A stretch of 52,109 nucleotides of DNA from Alphaproteobacteria bacterium (GTDB lineage: Bacteria > Pseudomonadota > Alphaproteobacteria > CADEGL01), in assembly GCA_026400755.1 (NCBI GenBank), contig JAPLOM010000007.1, forward strand, positions 1 to 52,109. Reading direction: 5' to 3'. The notes beneath the pieces were generated by a model. It saw only the letters and a list, made by a program, of their open reading frames with translations. It ran no database searches and was not told the origin of the DNA. Position numbers and translations under genes: made by a program. Below, one piece after another: positions 25,069 to 46,337 of this stretch. How positions within the stretch are numbered: position 1 is the stretch's first letter; each line of letters starts with the position of its first letter.

Positions 25069-26166
25069 ATGAGCAAGGCTTCGAAGCAGAAAGGCGCCCT
25101 GGCGCCGGGTTCCGTCATCGGCATCATGGGCGGCGGCCAGCTGGGCCGCATGACCGCCATCGCCGCTGCGCGGCTGGGTTATCGCTGCCACATCTTCACG
25201 CCCGAGCGCGACGGCCCCGCATCGCAAGTGGCCTACGCCACCACGATCGCGGAATACACCGACAAGCGCGCGCTGGCCCGCTTCGCCGACGCGGTCGACG
25301 TGGTGACCTTCGAGTTCGAGAACATTCCGCATGCGAGCCTGACGCTTCTGGAAGCGCGGGTGCCTGTGCGGCCGGGCGTTAAAGCGTTGGAGATCAGCCA
25401 GGACCGGCTGATCGAAAAGGATTTCCTGCGCTCCATCGGCGTGCCCACGGCGGACTACCGCGCGATCCACAACGCCACCGAACTGGCCGACGCCTTCGAG
25501 GCGTTCGGCCGCAACGCGATCCTCAAGACCACCCGCTTCGGCTATGACGGCAAGGGCCAGGTGCGGATGTCGCCCGCGACGAAGCCACAGGACGCGTGGC
25601 GCAAGCTGGGCGCCAAGATCGCGATCCTCGAAAAGCGCGTCGACTTCGTCTGCGAGGTGTCCGTCGTCATCGCGCGCGGACTCGACGGCAAGTCGGTGCA
25701 TTTCGTGCCGGTGGAGAACCGCCATCTTCACGGCATCTTGGACACGACCACCGCACCCGCCCTCGTCCTGCCCGCGGTCGCCAAGCAGGCCGTCGCCATG
25801 GCCCAGCGCGCGGCCAAGGCGCTGGATCTGGTCGGCATCCTGGCCGTCGAGATGTTCGTCACGCGCCAGGGCCAGGTGCTGGCCAACGAGATCGCGCCGC
25901 GCCCGCACAATTCCGGCCACTGGACCATCGACGCCTGCCAGTCGAGCCAGTTCGAGCAGCATGTGCGCGCGGTCTGCGGCCTGCCGCTGGGTTCGCCCGA
26001 GCGGCACCACGACGCGCTGATGAAGAACCTGATCGGCCGCGACGCGCTGCGCTGGAAAAGCCTGGTGCGCGACCAGGACGCCAAGCTGCATCTTTACGGC
26101 AAGCGCGAGGCGCGCGCGGGCCGCAAGATGGGCCACGTGACGTGGCTCAAGCCGAAGAGCGACTAG
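25069..26166 (+). CDS. purK: N5-carboxyaminoimidazole ribonucleotide synthase
   Basis: 365 residues. ATP-grasp enzyme that carboxylates AIR with bicarbonate to give N5-CAIR, the substrate of PurE. Seen: [17 protein letters not shown] at the N-terminus, [21 protein letters not shown] (ATP-binding loop), [13 protein letters not shown] and [18 protein letters not shown], which binds Mg-ATP and is diagnostic of PurK. ATG at 25069 is 4 bases after the purE stop. The TAG overlaps the stop of the convergent FAD enzyme. Confidence 0.97.
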
Positions 26167-27272
26167 GACGCCAGCAATCCCGCCACATGATCGCCGATGG
26201 CCAGGCACGAGGTCAGGCCGGGCGATTCGATTCCGAACAGATTGACCAAGCCCGACACGCCGTGGTCGCGCGGGCCCCGGATCATGAAGTCGGGCGTCGG
26301 TACGCCCTTCGGCACGATCTTCGGCCGAACACCGGCATAGCCGGGCTGCAGCGCGCCGTCCGGCAAGGCCGGCCAATAGCTGCGCACCGCCTGATAGAAA
26401 GAATCGGCGCGCCTGGGATCGACCTCGTAGTCCGGCGTGTCGATCCATTCCACGTCGGGGCCGAAGCGCACCTGGCCGCCCATGTCGATGGTGACATGGA
26501 CGCCCAGCCAGAAATCGACCGGCAACGGATAGATCAGCCGTGAGAACGGCGCCTTCACGCCAGATAGGGTGAAGTAGTTGCCCTTGGCGTAATGGATGGG
26601 CGGCACCTCGGCGCGCGGCAACCCTTCCATGGCGCCCGCGATGGCCTGGGCGCCGAGTGCCGCGGCATTCACCACGCTGCGCGCGATCAGCTCCATGGGC
26701 TCGGCGCCACCGACGCGCAACGTGATGCCATCGTCGCCAATACGCCCACCCACGACGGGCACATGGCAGGCCAGAATGGCGCCGCGGGCCTCTGCGTCCG
26801 CCAACAACGCTTGCGTCAATTCGTGGCTGTCCACGATGCCGGTCGAGGGCGACAGGAGCGCGGCCGTGCAGTGGAGCTGCGGCTCCATGGCGCGCGCCTG
26901 TTGGGCCGTGAGCGACTCCAGATCGTCGACGCCGTTGGCGGTTGCCGCTGCCTTGAGCTTGGCCAGCGCCGGATGCTGGTCCACGGCGGTCGCCACGATC
27001 AGCTTCGTCGCACGCCGGTGCGGCACGCCGCGTTCGGCGCAGAATTCGTAGAGCGCCTTCTTGCCCGCGACGCAGAAGCGCGCCTTCAGGCTGTCCTTCG
27101 GATAATAGATGCCCGCGTGGATGACCTCGGAGTTGCGCGAGCTGACTTCGGTGCCGGCGGCCTCGGCCGCCTCCAGGATCAGAACCTCGCGTCCGTCCCT
27201 GGCCAGACGCCGCGCGATACCGAGACCGACCGCGCCTGCGCCGATGACGACGCAATCGACCCGCTCAGCCAT
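26163..27272 (-). CDS. FAD-dependent oxidoreductase, L-2-hydroxyglutarate oxidase-like
   Basis: 369 residues. DAO-type flavoprotein: Rossmann motif [17 protein letters not shown], then [15 protein letters not shown], the LhgO/L2HGDH signature, and C-terminal [22 protein letters not shown]. The most likely reaction is oxidation of L-2-hydroxyglutarate to 2-oxoglutarate at the membrane; other 2-hydroxy acids are possible. Its stop is interleaved with that of purK, and it diverges from the RidA fusion across 165 bases. Confidence 0.9.
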
Positions 27273-27437: not shown

Positions 27438-28661
27438 ATGCTGAAGCGCGAACATCATTGGCCCGAGGGTCACTGGGACTGGCTGATCCACCTGGCCTTC
27501 AAGCACGGCATCCGCTGCGGCGACATGATTTATGTCGGCGGCCAGGTCGACAAGGACATCAAGGGCCTGTGCCTCAACCTTTACGAGCTGGAAGCCCAGA
27601 CCCGCGTGGTGATGAAGCACATCGCGACCGTGCTGAAGGGCTTCGACGCCGGTCTGAACGACGTGGTCAAGCTGGTGGCCTTCTACGTCAACGACGGCAA
27701 GGTCAACGAGCGCGACTTCCTGGCCGAGATCGCGAGCCACCTGCCGACGGGCGCGAAGCCCGCGATCACGCTGATCCCCCTGCCGTGGCTGGCCTATCCC
27801 GGCATGATGGTGGAGATCGAGGCCGTCGCCATGCTGGGCCAGGACGGTGCGCATCTGGCGCGCACCCACGCCGCGCCCCAGAACCATGCGCCGCTGTTGG
27901 CGCCCTTCGCCCAAGCCGTGCGCTGCAACAAGATGATCCATGTCAGCGCGCAAGCGCCGCGCGACGGCAACAACCGTGTGCTGCATCCGGGCGACATCGT
28001 GCGCCAGAGCGAAGCAGTGATGGAGAACCTGGCCAAGGTGCTGAAGGAATTCGGCGCCACGCTCGACGATGCGGTGAAGTTCAACATCTATTACGAGGGC
28101 CGGGGCACCGAGGCCGACTGGCGCAAGGCGGCCGAAGTGCGCGCGCGCTATTTCAAGGAGCCCGGTCCGGTCGCCACCGGCCTGCCCGTGCCCTATCTGC
28201 CCGACGGCGAGACGATCCGCATGGAGATCGTGGCCATGCTGGGCGAGGACGGGAAGCATCTGCCGCGCGAGCATGTCTGGCCCGATGGGCATTGGGATTG
28301 GACGATCCATCTGCCCTACAAGCATGGGCTGAAGTGCGGCGACATGGTCTTTGTCGGCGGCCAGGTGGCCATGAGCCCCAAGGGGCAGGTACTGCATCCG
28401 GGCGATCTGATCCCGCAAACCAACATCACCATGGACAACATCGCCAAGGTCCTGGGCGGCTTTGGCTTGACCTTGGACGACATCGTGAAGAACAACGCCT
28501 TCTATAGGGGCACGGCCGGGCCCGACACGATCGTGGCCAACCAGCGCGTGCGCTCCGCGCGCTTCAAGGAGCCGGGCCCCGCTTCCACCGGCGTGCCGCT
28601 CAAGTTCCTGGCCTATGAAGGGATGGAGACGGAAATCGAAGTGATCGCCATGGTGCGTTAG
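27438..28661 (+). CDS. Three tandem RidA (YjgF/YER057c) domains in one chain
   Basis: 407 residues comprising three RidA-like domains at about 5-134, 146-268 and 276-407. Each ends in the family's final strand (VEIEAVAML, MEIVAMLG, EIEVIAMVR). Domains 1 and 3 begin with nearly the same segment: residues 4-37 and 277-310 agree at 25 of 34 positions, including HWPEGHWDW versus VWPDGHWDW. RidA normally works as a homotrimer that hydrolyses reactive enamines and imines, so this looks like a covalent trimer. None of the domains shows the catalytic Arg in the usual place (PAITLIPLPWL, GLPVPYLPDG, GVPLKFLAYEG), so it resembles non-deaminase Rid subgroups. ATG at 27438 has GGGGAG seven bases upstream. 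It precedes a liv-type ABC transporter operon. Confidence 0.92.
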   Translation: MLKREHHWPEGHWDWLIHLAFKHGIRCGDMIYVGGQVDKDIKGLCLNLYELEAQTRVVMKHIATVLKGFDAGLNDVVKLVAFYVNDGKVNERDFLAEIASHLPTGAKPAITLIPLPWLAYPGMMVEIEAVAMLGQDGAHLARTHAAPQNHAPLLAPFAQAVRCNKMIHVSAQAPRDGNNRVLHPGDIVRQSEAVMENLAKVLKEFGATLDDAVKFNIYYEGRGTEADWRKAAEVRARYFKEPGPVATGLPVPYLPDGETIRMEIVAMLGEDGKHLPREHVWPDGHWDWTIHLPYKHGLKCGDMVFVGGQVAMSPKGQVLHPGDLIPQTNITMDNIAKVLGGFGLTLDDIVKNNAFYRGTAGPDTIVANQRVRSARFKEPGPASTGVPLKFLAYEGMETEIEVIAMVR

Positions 28662-28903: not shown

Positions 28904-29651
28904 ATGGCTGGGGACTACATCCTCGAGACCGAGCGTCTGACCAAGGAGTTTCGCGGCTTCGTCGCCGTGAACGGCGTCGGCCTGCGCGTGCGCCGTGGCT
29001 CGGTCCATGCGCTGATCGGCCCGAACGGCGCGGGCAAGACCACCTGCTTCAATCTTCTCACCAAGTTCCTGACACCCAGCGCCGGACGCATCCTCTACAA
29101 CGGCCGCGACATCACCCAGGCAGCGCCGGCCGACGTGGCGCAGATGGGGCTGGTGCGCTCGTTCCAGATCTCGGCCGTCTTCCCGCATTTGACCTTGTTG
29201 GAGAACGTGCGCGTCGCGCTGCAGAAAAAGCGCGGAAAGTCGTTCGACTTCTGGCGCTCCGAACGGGTTCTCGATGCGCTCAACGACCGCGCCGCGGAGC
29301 TTCTGGCCGAGGTGGGATTGGCGGAGTTCGCGCATTTGACCGCGGTCGAGCTGCCCTACGGGCGCAAGCGCGCGCTGGAGATCGCGACCACCTTGGCGCT
29401 CGAACCGGAGCTGATGCTGCTGGACGAACCCACCGCCGGCATGGGCCATGAGGATTTGGGGCGCGTCGTCGCGCTCATCAAGCGCGTGGCGGCGAACCGC
29501 ACCGTCCTGATGGTCGAGCACAATCTGTCCGTCGTGGCGGACCTGTCGCACACGATCACGGTCCTGGCGCGGGGCGAGGTTCTGGTCGAAGGCGACTATG
29601 CCACCGTGTCGAAGAACCCGCAGGTGATCGAGGCCTATATGGGTTCAGGCC

Positions 29652-29659
<8 letters not shown>
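28904..29659 (+). CDS. livG: Branched-chain amino acid-type ABC transporter ATPase (LivG)
   Basis: 251 residues. Walker A GPNGAGKTTCFNLLT, Q-loop in VRSFQISAVFPHLT, a divergent signature LPYGRKRALEIATTLAL (LSGGQ replaced, as is common in LivG), Walker B LMLLDEPTAGM and H-loop VEHNLSVV. Drives uptake with LivF through LivH/LivM. A GTG at 28886 could add six residues; I used the ATG at 28904. The end overlaps livF by 8 bases. Confidence 0.92.
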
Positions 29660-30401
<742 letters not shown>

Positions 30402-30450
30402 CATTCCACTTTGATGCATTGAAAAAGAAACGAACCGAGGAGGAACCGAA

Positions 30451-31674
30451 ATGCGTGCGAAGAACAGCGTGAGAGCCCTGGGGCTCGCGGCCGCGGTGGT
30501 TTTGGCCGCCGGCACCGCCCGGGCCCAAGTCTCGGACGGCGTCATCAAGATCGGCGTCCTAACCGACATGTCCAGCCTCTATACCGACTTGGGCGGGCAA
30601 GGCTCCGTCGTCGCGGCCAAGATGGCCGTCGAGGATTTCGGCGCCGCCGCGAAGGGCATGAAGGTCGAGATCATCAGCGCCGACCACCAGAACAAGCCGG
30701 ACGTAGGCTCGGCCATCGCGCGCCAGTGGTACGACGCGGACAAGGTGGACGTGATCGTCGACGTACCCAATTCGGGCGTCGCTCTGGCGGTCAACGAGGT
30801 GACGCGCGAGAAGAACAAGGTCTTCCTCGTCTCCGGCGCGGCGTCCTCGGCGCTGACCAGCGACAAATGCTCGCCCAACACCGTTCACTGGACCTACGAT
30901 ACCTGGGCGCTGGCCAACGGCACGGGCCGTGCGATCGTGAAGACGGGCGGCGACTCCTGGTTCTTCATCACCGCCGACTACGCCTTCGGCCACCAGCTCG
31001 AGGCCGACACCACGGCCGTCGTGAAGGAGATGGGCGGCAAGGCGCTGGGCTCGGTCCGCGCGCCGTTGAACACGCCGGACTTCTCGTCCTTCCTGCTGCA
31101 GGCACAGGCGTCCAAGGCCAAGATCGTCGGCCTGGCCAATGCGGGCGGCGACACGGTCAACTCGATCAAGCAGGCGTCCGAGTTCGGCATCGTGAAGGGC
31201 GGCCAGAGCCTGGCCGGCCTTCTGGTCTTCCTGACCGACGTGCATTCCCTCGGGCTGCCCGTGGCCCAAGGCCTGATCTTCACCGAGGCCTGGTATTGGG
31301 ACATGAACGACGCGAACCGCGCCTTCGCGGCCAAGTTCGCGCCCCAGGACAAGGGCATCCATCCGACGATGGTGCATGCCGGCGTCTACTCGGCCGTCAC
31401 CCACTATCTGAAGGCGATCGAGCAGACCAAGAACGACACGGACGGCAAGGCCGTGGTCGACAAGATGAAATCCATGCCGACGGACGACAAGCTGTTCGGC
31501 AAGGGCACCATCCGCGCCGACGGACGACACATCCACGATATGTATCTGTTCGAGGTGAAGAAGCCGGACGAATCGAAGAAGCCGTGGGACTACTACAAGC
31601 TTCGCGCCACGATCCCCGCGGCGGAAGCCTTCCGTCCCGTCGAAAAGGGCAACTGCCCGCTCACCAAGAGCTAA
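30451..31674 (+). CDS. ABC transporter periplasmic substrate-binding protein, LivK family
   Basis: 407 residues. Signal peptide to ARAQ (about residue 25), then a type I periplasmic binding fold starting VIKIGVLTDMSSLYTDLGG. The substrate is uncertain: members of this group bind branched-chain amino acids, amides, urea or aromatic acids, and DMSSLYTDLGGQGSVVA differs from classic LivK. AGGAGG precedes the ATG by about seven bases, a strong site that suits an abundant binding protein. A hairpin (31683-31717) separates it from livH. Confidence 0.92.
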   Translation: MRAKNSVRALGLAAAVVLAAGTARAQVSDGVIKIGVLTDMSSLYTDLGGQGSVVAAKMAVEDFGAAAKGMKVEIISADHQNKPDVGSAIARQWYDADKVDVIVDVPNSGVALAVNEVTREKNKVFLVSGAASSALTSDKCSPNTVHWTYDTWALANGTGRAIVKTGGDSWFFITADYAFGHQLEADTTAVVKEMGGKALGSVRAPLNTPDFSSFLLQAQASKAKIVGLANAGGDTVNSIKQASEFGIVKGGQSLAGLLVFLTDVHSLGLPVAQGLIFTEAWYWDMNDANRAFAAKFAPQDKGIHPTMVHAGVYSAVTHYLKAIEQTKNDTDGKAVVDKMKSMPTDDKLFGKGTIRADGRHIHDMYLFEVKKPDESKKPWDYYKLRATIPAAEAFRPVEKGNCPLTKS

Positions 31675-31682
31675 CGAAAGCC

Positions 31683-31717
31683 GGCGCCGGAGAGGCACAC
31701 TCCGCCCCTCCGGCGCC
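31683..31717 (+). terminator. Intercistronic hairpin between binding protein and livH
   Basis: GGCGCCGGAG (31683-31692) and CTCCGGCGCC (31708-31717) form a perfect 10-bp stem with a 15-base loop, nine bases after the binding-protein stop. No T-run follows, so it more likely protects the upstream mRNA and lowers livHM output than ends transcription fully. Confidence 0.65.
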
Positions 31718-31736
31718 ACCTTCCCCGGCCCCACCG

Positions 31737-32624
31737 ATGTTCGAGCTTCTCGGCATATCGCCCCAGGCGCTGTTCGGCCAGTTGTTGATCGGTCTGATCA
31801 ACGGCTCGTTCTACGCCATGCTCAGCCTGGGGCTGGCCGTGATCTTCGGCCTGTTGAACATCATCAATTTCTGCCACGGCGCGCTCTACATGATGGGCGC
31901 CTTCGTGGCCTGGTTCGCGTTGAAGCATCTCGGCCTTGGCTATTGGCCGTCGCTGATCGTGGCCCCCATCGTGGTGGGCGCGTTCGGCATGGTGCTAGAA
32001 CGCTCGATGCTGCGGCACCTGTATAAGCTGGATCATATCTACGGTCTGCTTCTGACCTTTGGCCTGGCGCTCGTCATCGAAGGCGTCTTTCGCAACGAAT
32101 TCGGCGCTTCGGGCCTGCCCTACGGCATCCCGCCCACGCTGTCGGGGGGACAGAATCTGGGCTTCATGTTCCTGCCCAACTATCGCGCCTGGGTGATCGT
32201 GGCCTCGCTCGGCGTGTGCCTCGCGACTTGGTACGTCATCGAACGCACGAAGCTGGGCGCTTATCTGCGCGCCGCTACCGAGAATCCAACCCTGGTGCAG
32301 GCCTTCGGCATCAACGTGCCGCGCATGATCACGCTGACCTACGGCTTGGGCGTTGCGCTAGCGGCCCTCGCGGGCGTCTTGGCCGCGCCGATCTACCAGG
32401 TCAGCCCGCTGATGGGCTCCAATCTGATCATCGTGGTCTTCGCCGTGGTGGTGATCGGCGGCATGGGCTCGATCCTGGGATCCATCATCACGGGTTTCGC
32501 GCTCGGCGTCGTCGAGGGGTTGACCAAGGTGTTCTATCCCGAGGCGTCGTCGACCGTGATCTTCATCGTCATGGCGATCGTGCTTCTGATCCGGCCGACC
32601 GGCCTGTTTGGGCGGGCGCACTGA
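31737..32624 (+). CDS. livH: Branched-chain amino acid-type ABC transporter permease (LivH)
   Basis: 295 residues, about eight membrane helices. Typical LivH segments: LLIGLINGSFYAMLSLGLAVIFGLL, NFCHGALYMMGAF, RAATENPTLVQAFGIN (EAA-like coupling loop) and the C-terminal LLIRPTGLFGRAH (first segment split: NGSFYAMLSLGLAVIFG). ATG at 31737 follows a C-rich spacer with a poor ribosome site, consistent with lower expression than the binding protein. Stop and livM start overlap by one base (TGATG). Confidence 0.94.
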   Translation: MFELLGISPQALFGQLLIGLINGSFYAMLSLGLAVIFGLLNIINFCHGALYMMGAFVAWFALKHLGLGYWPSLIVAPIVVGAFGMVLERSMLRHLYKLDHIYGLLLTFGLALVIEGVFRNEFGASGLPYGIPPTLSGGQNLGFMFLPNYRAWVIVASLGVCLATWYVIERTKLGAYLRAATENPTLVQAFGINVPRMITLTYGLGVALAALAGVLAAPIYQVSPLMGSNLIIVVFAVVVIGGMGSILGSIITGFALGVVEGLTKVFYPEASSTVIFIVMAIVLLIRPTGLFGRAH

Positions 32625-33580
32625 TGGCGCAGGAAACCGCGCGCGCGAAGAAGGCCGGACACCGGCACCAATACGCCATCTTCGCCGGCATGGTGGCGCT
32701 GTTCGTGGTGCTGCCGTTCGTGATCTATCCGGTCTTCCTGATGCAGGCGCTGTGCTTCGCGCTGTTCGCCTGCGCGTTCAACCTTTTGATTGGCTATACG
32801 GGCCTCGTTTCCTTTGGCCACGCCATGTTTCTGGGCACCGCGGGCTATGTCACCGCGCACGCGGCCAAGGTCTGGGGAGTGCCGCCAGAACTCGCGATCC
32901 TTGCGGGCACGGCGGCGTCGGCGGCGCTGGGCCTGGTCGTGGGTCTTCTGGCCATCCGGCGGCAAGGCATCTACTTCGCCATGATCACGCTTGCGCTCGC
33001 GCAGATGATCTTCTTCTTCTCGCTTCAGGCCAAGTTCACCGGCGGCGAGGACGGCATCCAAAGCGTGCCGCGCGGCGTCATGTTCGGCATCCTGAATTTG
33101 CAGGACATGATGACGATGTATTACGTCGTCCTCGCCATCTTCCTGGCGGGCTTCCTTCTCATCTGCCGCGTCATCTATTCGCCCTTCGGCCAGGTGCTGA
33201 AGGCCATCCGCGAGAACGAGCCGCGCGCGATCTCGCTCGGCTACAACGTGCACCAGTACAAGCTGATCGCCTTCGTGCTGTCGGCCGCGCTGTCGGGCCT
33301 GGCGGGCGGCACCAAGGCCATCGTGTTCCAGTTGGCGTCGTTGACCGACGTGCACTGGACGATGTCCGGCGAGGTCGTGCTGATGACGCTCTTGGGCGGC
33401 ATGGGCACCGTGTTCGGCCCCATCGTCGGCGCCTTCATCGTCATCGCGATGCAGAACTACCTGGCCCAGCTCGGTTCCTGGGTCACCATCGCGCAAGGCG
33501 TCGTGTTCGTGATCTGCGTGCTAGCGTTCCGCCGCGGCATCGTCGGCGAACTCGGCCGCTTCCTGAAAAAACCGCTGTAG
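32624..33580 (+). CDS. livM: Branched-chain amino acid-type ABC transporter permease (LivM)
   Basis: 318 residues, about ten hydrophobic segments. LLIGYTGLVSFGHAMFLG is the LivM signature, followed by IRRQGIYFAMITLALAQM and the coupling loop VLKAIRENEPRAISLGYN. The C-terminus ends FRRGIVGELGRFLKKPL. Completes a permease pair with LivH. It converges on the RND permease gene with six bases between stops. Confidence 0.94.
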   Translation: MAQETARAKKAGHRHQYAIFAGMVALFVVLPFVIYPVFLMQALCFALFACAFNLLIGYTGLVSFGHAMFLGTAGYVTAHAAKVWGVPPELAILAGTAASAALGLVVGLLAIRRQGIYFAMITLALAQMIFFFSLQAKFTGGEDGIQSVPRGVMFGILNLQDMMTMYYVVLAIFLAGFLLICRVIYSPFGQVLKAIRENEPRAISLGYNVHQYKLIAFVLSAALSGLAGGTKAIVFQLASLTDVHWTMSGEVVLMTLLGGMGTVFGPIVGAFIVIAMQNYLAQLGSWVTIAQGVVFVICVLAFRRGIVGELGRFLKKPL

Positions 33581-45958: not shown

Positions 45959-46337
45959 CTATTTCTTCGCCGCCACCAGGACGATCTCGACCTGATCCTT
46001 GCCCGCGAGCTGGACCTGAATGCAGGCGCGCTGCGGCCAATGGTTCGAATCGGCGCCGATCCACGTGTTCCACTCGACGTCCATCTCATGCTTCTTTTTG
46101 ATGTCCGTCACATAGACGGTCGCCTGGATGATGCGCGTCTTGTCGGAACCCAGCATGCAGCCGACGGGATGCCGTGCCGGCGGGGCGCTCGCGCCAGCCG
46201 TTCAGCGTGCGGAGCATCACCTCGAGTTGGTTGTTCGGGGCGGAGGACGGATCGACGGCCACCGCCGTCACCAGGTCGCCGAAGGCACCGCCGCGGCTGC
46301 GGCCGGCTGCTTTTCCTTTTGCACGCTTGATGTCCAT
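45959..46337 (-). pseudogene. Frameshifted RidA family gene
   Basis: Start ATG at 46337 with GGAGGAGAAGCC directly upstream, an excellent ribosome site. The N-terminal half (MDIKRAKGKAAGRSRGGAFG ... NNQLEVMLRTLNGW) and the C-terminal half (GSDKTRIIQATVYVTDIKK ... RACIQVQLAGKDQVEIVLV) are both RidA-like but lie in frames one base apart. Removing one G from the GGG run at 46149-46151 would join them as LHAGSDKTRII in one reading frame of about 125 codons. The linker RERPAGTASRR is odd, so a second compensating change is possible. Could also be a sequencing error. Confidence 0.75.

Follow-up and report, generated by a model that had tools for sequence, protein, structure and literature searches.

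Chains with three consecutive RidA domains were named "3x-RidA" by Niehaus et al. in 2015, with EF_0115 of Enterococcus faecalis as the example, and were presumed to represent covalently linked trimer units (PMC4433059). This was the only paper retrieved by a full-text literature search for 3x-RidA. In the single-domain protein TdcF, the intersubunit cleft holds 2-ketobutyrate in contact with Arg105, Cys107 and Glu120 (PMC1884159), and replacing Arg by Ala in RidA nearly abolishes activity (PMC4433059). Cyclic amide hydrolases have been described as concatenated YjgF trimers (PMC3758960), and chorismatases and the FIST domain have been placed in the same YjgF-derived group (PMC11185555). In the chorismatase Hyg5, the essential acid is Glu334 (PMC7170507).

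The gene described here lies in a 52,109-nucleotide stretch of alphaproteobacterial DNA (contig JAPLOM010000007.1, hereafter the window, i.e., the whole stretch analyzed). It is a further member of the known, functionally uncharacterised 3x-RidA type. The architecture is not new, and the novelty implied by the initial annotation is limited, such chains having been named in 2015. We consider it probable that the protein is a pseudo-trimer formed by triplication, likely a Glu-based small-molecule protein, and that the adjoining liv genes are an inherited neighbour.

Domain architecture and triplication

The open reading frame was unbroken from the ATG at 27438 to the stop codon at 28661, with ggggagag immediately 5' of the start, and the orthologue at locus L014 began with the identical MLKREHHW start. 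Three PF01042 matches bore out the earlier reading of three RidA domains in a single chain. The gene and its parts are as follows (RidA numbering for Arg105 and Glu120).

27438-28661, plus strand: 3x-RidA gene, 407 aa; three PF01042 (RidA/YjgF, Ribonuc_L-PSP) stretches, whole-protein E 1.7e-49; AlphaFold2 (AF2) pLDDT 95.9, pTM 0.94
27438-27857, plus strand: RidA domain 1 (D1), residues 1-140; Arg105 replaced by Ile110, Glu120 kept as E126
27858-28262, plus strand: RidA domain 2 (D2), residues 141-275; Arg105 replaced by Ala246, Glu120 by Arg261 (Lys/Arg in 21 of 26 relatives)
28263-28658, plus strand: RidA domain 3 (D3), residues 276-407; Arg105 replaced by Ser383, Glu120 kept as E399
27459-27482, plus strand: WPEGHWDW motif of D1, residues 8-15; P9 and W13 invariant in 26 homologues
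28278-28301, plus strand: WPDGHWDW motif of D3, residues 281-288; W286 invariant, and W281, P282, G284, H285, D287 and W288 kept in at least 90%
27813-27815, plus strand: E126 codon, D1 equivalent of Glu120; Glu in 26/26
28218-28220, plus strand: R261 codon, Glu120 position of D2, now basic, from the alignment with E. coli RidA and homologues
28632-28634, plus strand: E399 codon, D3 equivalent of Glu120; Glu in 25/26; placed on the Hyg5 catalytic Glu334 by alignment offset

Elsewhere in the window, a short stretch (45968-46150, minus strand) with an 80-aa open frame matched only the C-terminal half of PF01042 and is perhaps a truncated Rid gene.

The identity of 25 out of 34 residues between positions 4-37 and 277-310, from which a duplication had been proposed, proved exact. 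Over the domains, identity reached 61/130 for D1/D3 (score 296, vs a shuffle maximum of 54), 49/140 for D1/D2 (score 184) and 49/130 for D2/D3 (score 235), each score being at least threefold the highest obtained from 500 shuffles. A 52-domain tree separated four groups, namely D1, D2, D3 and the single-domain Rids (those of the own genome along with E. coli RidA, TdcF and YjgH), and the split between single-domain proteins and domains of fused proteins had a support of 98/93; three wrongly extracted single-domain rows and two long-branch proteins were left out. The same grouping of D1, D2 and D3 was obtained with a set of 82 domains. Clades distinct from single-domain Rids are expected from one ancient intragenic triplication, and domain-pair scores and tree together supported internal triplication as the form that the proposed duplication took. 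Since both Pseudomonadota and Binatota are represented among the homologues, the triplication is old. The Rid fold and its triplication appear nearly certain.

Predicted fold and active-site positions

AlphaFold2, run with 26 homologues, predicted one compact chain with pLDDT and pTM values that indicate a confident relative placing of the three domains in the model. Among PDB entries, whole-chain similarity was highest for the chorismatases 5a3k, 5ag3 and 4bps (Hyg5/FkbO), with Z 28 and 2.9-3.1 A over 292-295 residues. Next came FBXO22 with its FIST domain (Z about 15) and the cyclic amide hydrolase 5hy4 (Z 10.6); each match to a single RidA chain covered one domain (Z about 12). The model, these whole-chain matches to YjgF concatemers and the literature on their folds support packing as a covalent pseudo-trimer, so that the covalent trimer first suggested from the sequence was also the outcome of the proposed structure check, at the level of prediction.

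In the alignment with E. coli RidA, the Arg105 position was occupied by I110, A246 and S383, in agreement with the earlier statement that the usual catalytic Arg region is missing from all three domains. Across 26 homologous proteins, D1 had I/V/L at this position, D2 mainly Ala and D3 Ser/Thr, and an Arg was found there in none of the 78 domains. The Glu120 position held Glu in every D1 (26/26) and in 25/26 D3, while in D2 it was Lys/Arg in 21/26 and Glu in 0/26; similarly, D1 and D3 retained the G31-Q32 pair, which was often missing from D2. With the acid at the Glu120 position of D1 and D3 and a basic residue in D2, the three clefts are not equivalent. Paralogues from the own genome mostly followed the same residue pattern, with two exceptions at the Glu120 position (C10b with Ser in D3 and C52 with Gln in D1), showing that Glu is not universal.

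The structural match ended at model residue 405 and chain residue 340, and by that offset E399 would be the equivalent of Hyg5 Glu334. In sequence profiles, only one domain aligned with chorismatase-like proteins (82% probability), and this was D1 and not D3; the E399/Glu334 correspondence thus comes from the offset.

We know of no function for Rid proteins that lack the catalytic Arg. The missing Arg would fit a protein that binds a ligand or acts as a scaffold and is catalytically dead, as seems to be the case for the FIST domain, and a Rid5/6-like protein without the Arg showed no deaminase function. The FIST domain of FBXO22 has the same fold without an obvious pocket (PMC11185555). Against a dead protein, D1 and D3 strongly conserve the Glu120 equivalents and the G-Q pair that D2 has lost, a pattern expected if some clefts were functionally constrained, and we regard this explanation as somewhat unlikely.

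Genomic neighbourhood and distribution

The gene is flanked by a divergent FAD oxidoreductase gene and by five liv-type transporter genes. All five, proposed earlier to form a complete liv operon at 28904-33580, were confirmed as real by Pfam matches.

26163-27272, minus strand: divergent DAO-family FAD oxidoreductase, L-2-hydroxyglutarate-oxidase-like; PF01266, NF008726 below cut-off; neighbour in three genomes only
28904-29659, plus strand: livG-like ABC ATPase; PF00005 and PF12399; link not conserved
29652-30401, plus strand: livF-like ABC ATPase; PF00005, closest NCBIfam model UrtE, below cut-off
30451-31674, plus strand: livK-like periplasmic binding protein; PF13458 E 1e-109, nearest solved structure 3i09
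31737-32624, plus strand: livH-like permease; PF02653
32621-33580, plus strand: livM-like permease; PF02653

The 3x-RidA gene and livG were separated by 242 bp, and a scan of this gap displayed no promoter- or terminator-like match. The ATPases and permeases at 28904-33580 scored nearer to Urt (urea-transporter) models than to those for Liv, in every case below cut-off, so this transporter cannot safely be assigned 'branched-chain amino acid' as its substrate; the nearest solved relatives of the livK-like protein indicated no ligand.

The initial annotation took the link to the liv genes as a hint that the substrate is imported by that transporter. The protein could be a dedicated partner of transporter and oxidoreductase, with an amine or amino acid being imported, turned into an imine by the FAD enzyme and hydrolysed by 3x-RidA. 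The liv genes adjoined 3x-RidA in three of the five genomes of the GTDB family (the window, L014 with 89% identity and L017 with 77%), and the order FAD oxidoreductase - 3x-RidA - livGFKHM was kept in these three genomes of two genera. Rid genes in general cluster with FAD amine oxidases, and unrelated ABC importers were found near 3x-RidA at L016, L019, L050 and L053. However, the window and L017 shared a syntenic block of about 17 kb in which purE, purK and the FAD oxidoreductase are also found, and the liv link may thus reflect nothing more than synteny. The two other genomes of the family (G003 and G004) kept a 3x-RidA orthologue (60% identity), but a livK search returned no match in their assemblies (92% and 87% complete) and the FAD oxidoreductase was on another contig than 3x-RidA. 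No liv genes were found near 3x-RidA at the more distant loci examined. The FAD enzyme is more like a hydroxyglutarate oxidase than an amine oxidase, and the Arg105 needed for imine hydrolysis is missing. A dedicated partnership of this kind is therefore unlikely. Conservation of the neighbourhood, whose absence in relatives the initial annotation had named as a refutation, did not extend beyond the closest relatives, and the proposed link to that transporter was not supported; the liv genes as a conserved link, and the FAD oxidoreductase as a fixed partner beyond two genera, were both rejected. Most likely, the adjoining transporter is an inherited neighbour and not a demonstrated partner, and we hold with good confidence that no dedicated liv partnership exists.

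A search of genome contigs yielded 42 3x-RidA loci. Besides the liv-linked ones, 3x-RidA genes adjoined amidases (at five loci, raw count), amidohydrolases, DDAH-like proteins, flavin oxidoreductases or hisD/murA, these names being readings of the sequence except for the amidase and MlrC matches. Homologues on plasmids were annotated as RidA family protein. On contig C10, two 3x-RidA genes flanked a pair of ORFs, each of about 210 aa and similar to one another (L009:7145-11086), next to an AtzE-like amidase (L009:5605-7038). The most divergent 3x-RidA paralogue adjoined an MlrC-like (microcystinase family) gene (L011:5589-8341).

The own genome encoded five three-domain Rid genes and gave 24 PF01042 matches at E 1e-10, vs 0 to 12 in 37 of 38 other genomes of the class and 30 in the remaining one (G145). 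Its 3.36 Mb (G000) contained about 20 ORFs of the Rid family, together carrying 30 PF01042 domains, a count well above the 'up to 11' per bacterium in the literature (PMC5979572). At E 1e-60, 10 of 387 genomes of the class matched the profile for this 3x-RidA clade. In G145, two adjacent three-domain Rid ORFs (open frames of 442 and 430 aa; C11:26473-28948) lay outside the reach of the A1 profile at that threshold.

Proposed function and comparison with known systems

In the preferred explanation, one ancient intragenic triplication would have produced three Rid-fold domains packed as a covalent pseudo-trimer. By analogy with RidA trimers, ligands would bind in the interdomain clefts, whose geometry is read from the alignment. 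The acid and the G-Q pair would remain only in the D1 and/or D3 clefts, and the D2 cleft would have been repurposed. The probable substrate or ligand of the protein is a small metabolite, nitrogenous or carbonyl. Glu would likely serve as general acid/base in the manner of chorismatases, and the protein would not be a classical Arg-dependent 2-aminoacrylate deaminase. A Glu-based, Arg-independent enzyme has about an even chance of being the correct reading.

Classical imine hydrolysis is unlikely because Arg105 is missing in all domains, and an ordinary imine deaminase stabilised by fusion is very improbable: its TIGR00004 score (Rid family detoxifying hydrolase, 136.5 vs a cut-off of 106.25) is a sum over three domains, Arg105 is replaced in all three of them across 26 homologues, and the Arg-to-Ala change nearly abolishes RidA activity (PMC4433059).

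More tentatively, the clade may be an uncharacterised enzyme family in which fusion let the three clefts diverge, with D1 and/or D3 turned into Glu-dependent catalytic sites and a basic residue of D2, located where the acid had been, substituting for Arg105. The result would be a single asymmetric active site whose new chemistry is chorismatase-like or hydrolytic. If so, the several paralogues per genome would serve different catabolic modules. Because the three clefts of a fused trimer can be told apart, such a protein amounts to a natural experiment in which the conserved cleft reveals which residues matter, and the acid kept in D1 and D3 but turned basic in D2 makes point mutants directly testable.

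The single-domain homotrimers RidA/TdcF and YjgH (Rid7) share the Rid fold with each 3x-RidA domain, and the alignment of D3 with YjgH spanned almost its full length and took in the N-terminal stretch. Unlike 3x-RidA, they are not fused; RidA keeps Arg105, where YjgH has Trp. With respect to RidA imine deaminases, the window protein thus has the Rid fold (PF01042) and lacks the catalytic Arg105. Cyclic amide hydrolases (Toblerone fold, AtzD/barbiturase), which carry a Ser-Lys dyad and an Arg in each repeat, are alike as YjgF concatemers with a whole-chain structural match, and no AtzD/TrzD family match was present among Pfam matches up to E 1. Chorismatases FkbO/Hyg5 are alike in whole-chain fold and, judged by alignment offset, may be alike in a C-terminal Glu, but differ in their low identity (15-16%) and in the alignment of one domain only by profile; membership was rejected, as TIGR04444 gave 21 bits vs a cut-off of 325. 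EF_0115, compared by description on architecture alone, has the same three tandem domains and presumed covalent trimer; the tandem domains are found here, and trimer-unit assembly is predicted by the model. The gene joins YjgF concatemers that were noted independently (chorismatase, cyclic amide hydrolase and FIST), which illustrate how new enzymes arise through fusion and subsequent asymmetry.
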